Origin: Rhodobiaceae bacterium
GTDB taxonomy: Bacteria; Pseudomonadota; Alphaproteobacteria; Rhizobiales; JANQQB01
Length of the DNA stretch: 58,937 nt
Direction: 5' to 3'
NCBI GenBank assembly: GCA_028285165.1
Contig: JANQQB010000058.1
Coordinates: forward strand, 1-58,937
Part shown: one piece after another, positions 48,173 to 51,268 of the stretch
Numbering within the stretch: position 1 is the stretch's first letter
How the letters are laid out: each line of letters begins with the position of its first letter
Notes under the pieces: model-generated
What the model was told of the DNA's origin: nothing
Databases searched by the model: none
Seen by the model: only the letters and a program-made list of their open reading frames with translations
Program-made: the position numbers and the translations under genes

Positions 48173-49300
48173 ATGGCGCTTCTCACCTATCTCACCACGG
48201 CTCATTTCGATTTCGGCGCGATTGCCCGCCTGCCGAAGGAAATGGCCCGGCTCGGGATATCACGACCGTTGATCGTGACCGATGCCGGGCTCGTCCGTGC
48301 CGGGCTCCTGGAGCGGGTCACCGATCAGGTGGAGGCTGGGTCGTCACTCCCGGTCTTTGACGGGACGCCGGCCAATCCGACGGAAAAGGCCGTGATGGCG
48401 GCTTTTGCCCAATACGGCGAGGAAGGCTGCGACGGCGTGATCGCGCTCGGCGGCGGCTCGTCCATGGATCTCGGCAAGGCGGTCGCGCTGCTGGCCGGCA
48501 GCGGTGGGCCGCTCGACAAGTTCGATCCGGCAAACAAGGGCACGCGTAACATGACGGCGGTCGCGCCCGTCATCGCCGTGCCGACCACGTCGGGAACCGG
48601 CAGCGAAGTCTCGGTCGGCATCATCATCGTCATGGATGACGGCCGCAAGGCGACCTTTGCCGGGCCGAAGCTGATCCCGGCCTCGGCGATCTGCGATCCG
48701 GAACTGACGCTCGGCCTGCCGCCGCTGATGACCGCGGCGACCGGCATGGACGCGATCACCCATTGCATCGAGTCGTTTCTCGCGCCGACCGAAAACCCGC
48801 CGGCTGACGGTGTCGCCCTCGACGGATTGTGGCGTGGGTGGTCGGCGCTGAAACGCGCCGTGGACGACGGCTCCGACCGGGAGGCGCGGTGGAACATGAT
48901 GATGGCGTCGACCGAAGGAGCGCTTGCCTTCATCAAGGGGCTCGGCGCCGTGCATTCCATGAGCCACGCCGCCGGTCGCCTGTCCGATCTCAACCTGCAC
49001 CACGGTACCCTCAATGCGGTGCTTTTGCCGGCGGTTCTGCGGTTCAACGCGCCGGGTCAGGAGGAGCGTTATGCCCGTTTGCGCCAGGCGATGGGGCTGG
49101 AGCCGGGCGCGGATATCGCCGATGCCATTGCCGGTCTCAATGCGTCGATCGGTCTGCCAGCGAATCTGACCGAAATGGGCCTGACGGAGGCGCGGCTCGG
49201 CGACATGGTGCCCTATGCGGTCTCGGATCTGGCGACCCGGACCAATCCGCGACCGGTCGGCGCGTCGGAATTCGAGGCATTGTATCGCGAGAGTTTTTAG
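48173..49300 (+). CDS. Iron-containing alcohol dehydrogenase
   Basis: GVIALGGGSSMDLGKAVALL, PTTSGTGSEVS, GMDAITHCIESFL, HSMSHAAGRLSDLNLHHGTLNAVLLP. Confidence 0.93.
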   Translation: MALLTYLTTAHFDFGAIARLPKEMARLGISRPLIVTDAGLVRAGLLERVTDQVEAGSSLPVFDGTPANPTEKAVMAAFAQYGEEGCDGVIALGGGSSMDLGKAVALLAGSGGPLDKFDPANKGTRNMTAVAPVIAVPTTSGTGSEVSVGIIIVMDDGRKATFAGPKLIPASAICDPELTLGLPPLMTAATGMDAITHCIESFLAPTENPPADGVALDGLWRGWSALKRAVDDGSDREARWNMMMASTEGALAFIKGLGAVHSMSHAAGRLSDLNLHHGTLNAVLLPAVLRFNAPGQEERYARLRQAMGLEPGADIADAIAGLNASIGLPANLTEMGLTEARLGDMVPYAVSDLATRTNPRPVGASEFEALYRESF

Positions 49301-49331: not shown

Positions 49332-49376
49332 AGGGGATCGCAACGACGTCCAGCGAGCCTGCAAAACCGGCCTACC

Positions 49377-49400
49377 GCAAATCGGATGTTTCCGATTTGC
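49377..49400. repeat. Hairpin GCAAATCGGA-TGTT-TCCGATTTGC
   Basis: Perfect 10-bp stem, tetraloop. Confidence 0.85.
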
Positions 49401-49411
49401 GCACTTGAGTG

Positions 49412-49437
49412 CCAAACAGGGAAACATCCCTGTTTGG
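49412..49437. repeat. Hairpin CCAAACAGGGA-AACA-TCCCTGTTTGG, inverted relative of the preceding hairpin
   Basis: Perfect 11-bp stem; apical 10 nt are the exact reverse complement of those of hairpin 49377-49400. Confidence 0.85.
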
Positions 49438-49572: not shown

Positions 49573-50220
49573 CTAACTCATCTCGCGACTTTTGAGGTGT
49601 TCGATCAGTTTTCCGACGATCTCGGCTATGCCTGTTACTTGTTCCACAGTTGGGGAAATGTTGAGATCTCCATGCACGAGTCGATTTCGCCAATCGACCG
49701 CTTCTCTCAGCTTTTCTGCTTGGCTTGGCCTAACCAAACCAGCCCCGGCCAACAGCTCAACGACGCGACCTGGGGTCTGGGGACGTTGGGTATGCTGCGG
49801 ATCGAGCCGACGCGCTAGAGCTTCCAGAACGGCCCAAAGCAAGAGCAGGCTTCCCCGTTGGTCAGTGGAGATTGAGCTTCGCACATTTGACAGAAACTCA
49901 TCGAGACGCTCTGTCTCGACAGCAGGCAAGAGATCCGGTTCGTTGCCGGCATAAACGACTTCAAGCGTCCAGTCGTTGTCATGGGAAATCGCGCTTTTCA
50001 GACGGTCGATTTTATGCGCGATTTCCGGATTACCCTTACTGACGATTTCGACAATCACTTTGGGGTTTCGACCCAGCAGTATGGCGTCAGGCTTGAGGCC
50101 TTTCAGAAAGGCGGGCAGATTTTCCGGTGCTGGACGGCGAACCAGGCGGTAGCCTTGCGCGGTCCACGCGGGTTCATGGAGGTCCAGGACAGCGGTTTCT
50201 GTCTGTTGGGAAACATTCAC
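49573..50220 (-). CDS. Restriction-endonuclease-like (AHJR-like, PD-(D/E)xK-type) protein with HEPN-like C-terminus
   Basis: LHEPAWTAQGYRLVRRPAPENLPAFLKGLKPDAILLGRNPKVIVEIVSKG (PD...E...K) and C-terminal VDWRNRLVHGDL (Rx4H). Confidence 0.6.
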   Translation of the reverse strand: MNVSQQTETAVLDLHEPAWTAQGYRLVRRPAPENLPAFLKGLKPDAILLGRNPKVIVEIVSKGNPEIAHKIDRLKSAISHDNDWTLEVVYAGNEPDLLPAVETERLDEFLSNVRSSISTDQRGSLLLLWAVLEALARRLDPQHTQRPQTPGRVVELLAGAGLVRPSQAEKLREAVDWRNRLVHGDLNISPTVEQVTGIAEIVGKLIEHLKSREMS

Positions 50221-50648
50221 GTGCCGATATCCTCAAGCGGTGCATGTCCGATCCTAACATAGAGTGCAGGGTCATCCGATGCCATGGCTTCAAACAGGAT
50301 CGCGCTCATTGTCTGAAAAGTGTACGTGCTTGTCGGGTCAAAGCGCTGCGCTACGACACGATCAATCAACTCATCGTCCCGATAAACATTGGGCATTAGC
50401 GCGTCCAAAGTCAGTTTGATAATATTGTCGATGTCGCCGGTCATCGCTGATTGCGGAAAATAAAATATTGAAACTGAAAGTCGTGTCTCTTGAAATGACC
50501 AGTTTCCTTCTTCGAGGGAGGCTTTTGCCGCTGCTAATACTCTGTCTTTCCATTCGTTCTTTGCAGAAACGTTGCTGCTCTGGTGGCTAACGGGAGTGCC
50601 AGTTACATAGAATTCAATAGGCAGGTTTGGCCACATGGTTGCTCTCAT
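50217..50648 (-). CDS. RusA-family Holliday junction resolvase-like nuclease
   Basis: IEFYVTGTPVSHQSSN...WKDRVLAAAKASL...TGDIDNIIKLTLDALMPNVYRDDELIDRVVAQRF; ATGA overlap with next gene. Confidence 0.8.
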   Translation of the reverse strand: MRATMWPNLPIEFYVTGTPVSHQSSNVSAKNEWKDRVLAAAKASLEEGNWSFQETRLSVSIFYFPQSAMTGDIDNIIKLTLDALMPNVYRDDELIDRVVAQRFDPTSTYTFQTMSAILFEAMASDDPALYVRIGHAPLEDIGT

Positions 50649-50683
50649 TTAGAACGGTCGGGCCAGCGTATGGGTTCGCCGAT

Positions 50684-50743
50684 AAATATTTCGCGATATT
50701 TTAGATTCCGTTTCCATTATTCGTCTATAAATAGAAAAATCAA
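50684..50743 (-). promoter_or_regulatory. Putative promoter (TTGATT-N16-AATAAT) with downstream inverted repeat AAATAT-N6-ATATTT upstream of the RusA-like gene
   Basis: -35-like TTGATT at 50743-50738, -10-like AATAAT at 50721-50716, IR at 50684-50701. Confidence 0.45.
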
Positions 50744-50878
50744 CATTTTGGGTGTATGCGTGGAATCCCGAATCTGAGTCCTGAATCTGAGTTACAGAGT
50801 GTTCGGTCCAGGTCTCAGGATGCCCGGTTATACCCAGCTGCTATCGAAATGAGCTGCTGTCCATGGCGGGCAAAGCCG

Positions 50879-51268
50879 TTAGCATTCGGTCGAACACTCG
50901 ATCGGAAAGTACCCCTCGTCGCCGGTTCCGGCATCCGCCTCAGGACCCATCGGCGTGAAGAAACAGGTGCGCCGTCCGGTGTGGCAGGCGGCGCCGGTCT
51001 GGTCTACGACGAGGAGGATCGTGTCGCCGTCGCAATCGAGGCGGGCTTCCACGAGGTGCTGGACGTGGCCCGACGTGTCGCCCTTGCGCCAGAATTCCTG
51101 GCGGGAGCGGGACCAGTAGCAGACACGGCCGGTGCGCAACGTCTCGGCCAGCGAGTCAGCCGACATCCAGGCCATCATCAGCACCTCGCCGGTGTCTTTC
51201 TGTTGGGCGATCGCCGGCACCAGGCCGTCGGCATTGAAACGTACGCGGCTCAGATCGAAACCGGTCAT
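50879..51268 (-). CDS. hisI: Phosphoribosyl-AMP cyclohydrolase
   Basis: [46 protein letters not shown]...[27 protein letters not shown]; 129 aa at end of a longer ORF. Confidence 0.95.

Follow-up and report, generated by a model that had tools for sequence, protein, structure and literature searches.

The gene pair and its surroundings

The window, i.e., the whole stretch of 58,937 nucleotides that was analysed, carries a cassette of about 1.1 kb on the minus strand (49573-50648). It consists of two genes, encoding a RusA-family endodeoxyribonuclease and a protein in which a restriction endonuclease-like (REase) domain is fused to a HEPN domain. Both open reading frames (50217-50648 and 49573-50220) were found where a preliminary description of this DNA had placed them. 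hisI lies upstream of the pair on the same minus strand, with its stop at 50879, and the Fe-ADH gene, which is encoded on the plus strand and ends at 49300, is convergent to the pair. The features are as follows:

50217..50648, minus strand: RusA-family endodeoxyribonuclease gene, 143 aa, first gene of the pair (Pfam, PHROG, AlphaFold2)
49573..50220, minus strand: REase (AHJR-like)-HEPN fusion gene, 215 aa, GTG start, second gene of the pair (Pfam, AlphaFold2, Foldseek)
50217..50220, minus strand: GTGA overlap joining both genes, 4 nt (sequence)
50415..50438, minus strand: RusA motif GDIDNIIK with D72, D74 and K78 (alignment of relatives)
50373..50378, minus strand: RusA acidic pair DD, D91 and D92 (alignment of relatives)
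49924..50208, minus strand: AHJR-like REase-fold domain, residues 5-99 (PF18743 match), probably without nuclease activity in the window copy
49579..49914, minus strand: HEPN (HepT-like) domain, residues 103-214 (PF01934 at residues 129-189; boundary from model helices)
49672..49689, minus strand: HEPN catalytic motif R178-x4-H183, RNRLVH (alignment of relatives)
50649..50878, minus strand: AT-rich leader that separates hisI from the pair; weak sigma-70-like matches lie at 50716-50743 and 50698-50727

The overlap had been described as ATGA, but its letters are GTGA, as the second gene starts with GTG. The lower GC content that had been noted for the pair holds: it amounts to 52.1% versus 62.8% for the whole window, which ranks the cassette among the 0.7% of same-sized windows with the least GC, with 47.9% for the RusA gene and 54.9% for the fusion gene. 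The sigma-70-like matches in the leader (50649-50878) are not significant (two found versus 1.2 expected by chance). SOS control was rejected, as no GTTC-N7-GTTC box was found upstream (0 versus 0.6 expected).

Downstream of the pair, two perfect palindromes at 49376-49401 and 49413-49436 have a common core, GGATGTTTCC (CGCAAATCGGATGTTTCCGATTTGCG, CAAACAGGGAAACATCCCTGTTTG), and the region has a strong predicted fold (z -4.1). The core CGGATGTTTCCG is present in 59 copies in the genome versus one for the reversed control. The copies often form inverted doublets spaced by about 36 nt and often lie at contig ends. The palindromes are a REP/BIME-like family of the source genome.

Domains and catalytic residues of the two proteins

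The product of the first gene was assigned to the RusA family by Pfam (PF05866, 2.8e-8, 34.8 bits versus a curated cut-off of 22.8) and its PHROG match is RusA-like. The AlphaFold2 model, built from an alignment of 63 sequences, has a mean pLDDT of 90.0, and in a Foldseek search of the PDB it matched E. coli RusA (1q8r) with a probability of 1.00 and a TMt of 0.77. The signature GDIDN..K..DD, on which the first assignment had been based, is present. D72, D74, N75 and K78 are kept in all 63 relatives, D91 in 60 and D92 in 62 of them. Based on the residue roles in E. coli RusA, we take the Asp/Asp/Lys/Asp set D72, D74, K78 and D92 to be catalytic, and given these invariant residues the nuclease activity of RusA appears to be required.

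The second protein combines two domains, both above the Pfam cut-offs for the respective families. The N-terminal part (residues 5-99) matches the AHJR-like REase family PF18743 (2e-13, 50.4 bits versus 26.1) and the C-terminal part (residues 129-189) the HepT-like family PF01934 (2.2e-6, 27.8 bits versus 23.5). Its AlphaFold2 model (alignment of 74 sequences) reaches a mean pLDDT of 94.9. With Foldseek against the PDB, the helical half matched HEPN toxins (2hsb, 6m6w, 7ae9; probability 1.00, E-values from 4e-3), among them toxins of MNT-HEPN pairs, as well as other HEPN proteins, and the model also matched archaeal Holliday-junction resolvases (4tkd, 2eo0, 1ob8; probability 0.95-0.99). The E-values are modest because each target spans only one of the two domains. 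Direct sequence searches of the PDB gave no meaningful match for RusA or the fusion. The proposed combination of a REase and a HEPN fold in one protein is therefore borne out by the model and its structural matches, and so is the HEPN motif RNRLVH (Rx4H).

The catalytic residues of the two domains have fared differently. In the HEPN domain R178 and H183 are kept in 74 of 74 relatives and N179, the polar residue after the arginine, in 70 of 74. In the REase domain 73 of the 74 have P44 and D45 and 67 have E58, but the canonical E-x-K lysine (E58+2) is present in only 22, and the window copy has V60 at this position (E-I-V). From the PD...E...K motif that had been read in the window sequence, PD and E therefore stand; the proposed lysine is located at E+4 instead of E+2. 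Thus, by the criterion for an active PD-(D/E)xK nuclease, P44, D45 and E58 are present in the window copy and the lysine is absent. Loss of the lysine follows the tree: in one clade of 22 members the residue is kept by 18, and it is kept in 4 of the 52 other sequences, the window included. Purifying selection acts on both genes (dN/dS 0.02-0.17 for pairs where dS could be estimated).

Invariant RusA and HEPN residues together with a decayed REase lysine, missing in 52 of the 74 sequences, the window copy among them, argue against the idea of a bifunctional REase/RNase for the window copy. Judged from these residues, the HEPN RNase activity appears to be required and the REase catalysis dispensable. 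The REase domain of the window copy is probably devoid of nuclease activity, and it is more likely a reader of DNA structure than a nuclease.

The two genes form an obligate pair

A GTDB-wide search of contigs with the RusA alignment yielded 115 loci, of which 80 were listed, nearly all of these in Alphaproteobacteria; when the single HEPN-fusion sequence of the window was used as query for the contigs, no match was obtained. Among the 80 listed loci, the fusion lies directly downstream of RusA on the same strand in 78. One of the two unpaired loci ends at a contig edge (L114) and only the other (L056) truly lacks the fusion. The genes overlap by 4 nt in 45 and by 1 nt in 28 of these listed pairs, i.e., in 73 of 78, and chance adjacency was therefore rejected. 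In this set the pair spans five named orders and no fewer than 33 genera.

Other samples gave the same picture. Among 150 relatives, the HEPN fusion and RusA have their relatives in exactly the same genomes, where they lie side by side; on plasmids, all 6 records with one gene have the other adjacent. As an independent check, the Pfam AHJR-like model was searched in 399 genomes of the phylum, and all five matches have RusA directly upstream. In the control, none of 8 ordinary RusA genes (class search, E 1e-5 to 1e-9) has a HEPN fusion within flanks of about 1.5 kb. The distances of RusA and HEPN correlate in a mirror-tree comparison that ignores shared host ancestry (r = 0.69 versus a permutation maximum of 0.18), which, host ancestry aside, fits joint inheritance.

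Obligately paired and translationally coupled, the two genes move together. Neither a lack of the REase or HEPN fold nor a confinement of the pairing to the source genome, both of which had been named as grounds against the preliminary description, was found.

Some relatives deviate from this layout. A distant solo HEPN-REase relative (L008, 1498-2145, E 4e-14) lacks RusA as well as the PD/E residues and was not counted as a family member. In a decayed cassette (L144, G330:C1:3064369-3065125), RusA is split into two fragments that lie in different reading frames, and a fragment of HEPN comes after them. Dankookia rubra (L040, L094) and Methylobacterium sp. J-026 (L055, L111) each carry two divergent cassette copies, one from each main clade.

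Mobility and origin of the cassette

The distribution is patchy, with a match in 8 of 385 genomes of the class, one of these being the solo relative L008. In 73 of 76 listed loci the GC content of the cassette is below that of its flanks, on average by 8 points. The flanking genes change from locus to locus: 264 of 401 lack relatives elsewhere among the loci, and for 388 there are three at most.

Precise empty sites were found in two genera. Between the same two genes, G116 has 1,264 bp, compared to 47 bp in its sister genomes G907 and G879, and in G860 about 1.1 kb stands against 34-40 bp in G1000, G993, G1034 and G1036. As the sister genomes lack exactly both genes, the cassette is self-contained and moves as two genes, and the suggestion that it is a standalone cassette is supported. 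On pTi plasmids the common left flank stops at ligD, and the cassette is not common to them. The junction sequences contain no transposase, integrase or obvious target duplication, which makes the cassette a unit without a recognisable mobility gene. It probably spreads by homologous recombination of its flanks or as cargo.

Two other origins were rejected. Against an origin from a phage or prophage, phage records and IMG/VR yielded no relatives of the HEPN fusion, and the nearest RusA that was found in a phage is remote (39.6% over 52 aa). Against tRNA-linked integration, there is no tRNA in the window, and only 2 of 60 loci have one.

Genomic neighbours

PADLOC was used to scan 268 genes flanking the cassette loci. 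In Rhizobium sp. PDO1-076 (L097, 3586-12414) the cassette is located between GajA of Gabija (6.9e-221) and a PD-T7-1-like gene (2.5e-59). Other neighbours match the dCTPase defence model (L103, 4e-157), the 'Hydrolase' model (L105, 2.5e-57) and AbiEi/AbiEii (L015), and further loci adjoin matches to the type IIG restriction and PD-Lambda-3_B models. Among 135 control genes from 15 alphaproteobacterial regions nothing comparable was found except one match to mad3, a model that also matched several cassette-flanking genes. Most flanks consist of metabolic genes, so the association with defence islands is weak. Neither RusA nor the fusion itself has a match in PADLOC-DB 2.0 up to E = 10. One pTi copy adjoins ligD and imuA/error-prone polymerase genes.

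On two Rhizobium plasmids (L015, 8718-13650; L018, 8708-12087) the pair is followed by genes for an ATP-binding protein and a restriction endonuclease. The latter weakly matches type IV (methyl-directed) enzymes. This block is common to both plasmids, one of which has an IS5 insertion.

From the patchy, mobile distribution and the few loci beside defence genes, a defence role of the pair is plausible.

Possible functions of the pair

The pair is a compact, widespread and strictly conserved module with a clear presence/absence polymorphism, for which we found no reported function. HEPN proteins can be regulated in many ways. We tentatively favour, as the most probable of several readings but with less than even confidence, a horizontally moving, self-contained conflict module of Alphaproteobacteria, made up of two genes and either defensive or toxin-antitoxin-like, whose HEPN RNase would be under the control of branched DNA. 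The AHJR-like domain would read branched, Holliday-junction-like DNA instead of cutting it, and branched DNA that piles up, for example during replication and recombination of a phage or plasmid, would switch the HEPN RNase on. RusA would act on the same branched DNA, either by making the cut ends that activate the RNase or, alternatively, by removing the trigger and thereby keeping the RNase inactive in healthy cells. Cleavage of RNA by HEPN would then stop growth and hence the invader, in an abortive type of defence.

Two features lead us to propose branched DNA as the signal: RusA and the Hjc-like domain both carry folds of enzymes acting on four-way junctions, and in most copies the latter domain is without its lysine yet keeps the fold; it is this resemblance of folds that suggests the junction as trigger. 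The components point to a link from DNA branch processing to RNA destruction; among HEPN effectors, such a trigger would be uncommon. The more far-reaching proposal, that a nuclease-dead, AHJR-derived sensor of branched DNA fires the HEPN RNase, with RusA making or removing the trigger, and thereby represents an undescribed class of innate immunity, we consider unlikely.

The main rival to a conflict module with a branched-DNA signal is a protein toxin-antitoxin pair, in which the HEPN fusion would be an RNase toxin that is bound and restrained by RusA, much as HepT is by MNT, and which would be addictive or plasmid-stabilising and would not act in phage defence. Two small overlapping genes, a HEPN domain structurally closest to HepT toxins, the carriage on plasmids in 6 records, one copy beside AbiE and the patchy mobile distribution would all suit such a pair. 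However, RusA keeps every catalytic residue, which would be needless for a purely binding antitoxin, the pair contains no MNT gene, and the tyrosine at H+2 that is modified by MNT in HepT is absent in the HEPN domain of the window (HGD). We therefore regard a toxin-antitoxin pair as possible, though somewhat unlikely.

An accessory function in recombination or repair, without any role in conflict, is improbable. RusA would in this case resolve Holliday junctions or branches derived from R-loops and the fusion would trim RNA or chaperone the junction, in line with the junction-resolvase-type folds of both proteins and with the pTi copy beside ligD and imuA/error-prone polymerase genes. The patchiness, low GC content, changing neighbours and precise empty sites, however, misfit housekeeping repair, and no LexA-type box is present upstream in the loci.

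A restriction-like DNase module, in which REase (in the E-x-K copies) and RusA would cut foreign DNA with HEPN as back-up and the window copy would be a degenerate descendant, could draw on the one clade in which 18 of the 22 members keep the lysine. It is very improbable, as 48 of the 52 members of the larger group, which includes the window, have lost this lysine, with no change in the HEPN and RusA residues and with purifying selection on both genes.

With its small size and precise empty sites, the cassette should be easy to clone, delete and test in laboratory Alphaproteobacteria.

Comparison with known systems

With the E. coli Holliday junction resolvase RusA, the window RusA has family, fold and the catalytic Asp/Asp/Lys/Asp in common; it differs in being coupled to a HEPN fusion, with no phage gene adjacent.

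The MntA-HepT (MNT-HEPN) system likewise consists of two small genes, one of them encoding a HepT-like HEPN protein with R-x4-H, and MNT-HEPN structures are among the Foldseek matches. In this system MNT modifies the HepT tyrosine at H+2 (RX4HXY). The PDB entry of MntA-HepT Y104A, found with the fusion model, served as comparison for this tyrosine. In contrast, the window HEPN domain lacks the tyrosine of H-x-Y (H183-G184-D185), its protein has an extra N-terminal REase-fold domain, and the partner is RusA and not an MNT nucleotidyltransferase.

The CBS-HEPN system DS-11 is a validated HEPN-containing defence system (PMC13092281). As in DS-11 and other HEPN defence systems, a HEPN RNase would be coupled to a sensing domain in a small locus; sensing domain and partner differ, and the pair is absent from PADLOC. 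Two recent defence surveys, one of them PMC13092281, do not mention RusA. In a full-text literature search for RusA and HEPN together, covering main texts, no report of such a pair was found; a text match to RusA in a toxin-antitoxin paper was rejected, as it was the surname Rusanova.

The closest precedent is the fusion of HEPN-M (DUF86/HepT) to a REase domain resembling the archaeal Holliday junction resolvase (Anantharaman et al., 2013; PMC3710099). The window protein, with its matches above the PF18743 and PF01934 cut-offs, has the same architecture; the main text of that paper makes no mention of RusA. The present analysis adds the obligate RusA partner, the lost REase lysine, and the mobility of the cassette together with its empty sites.
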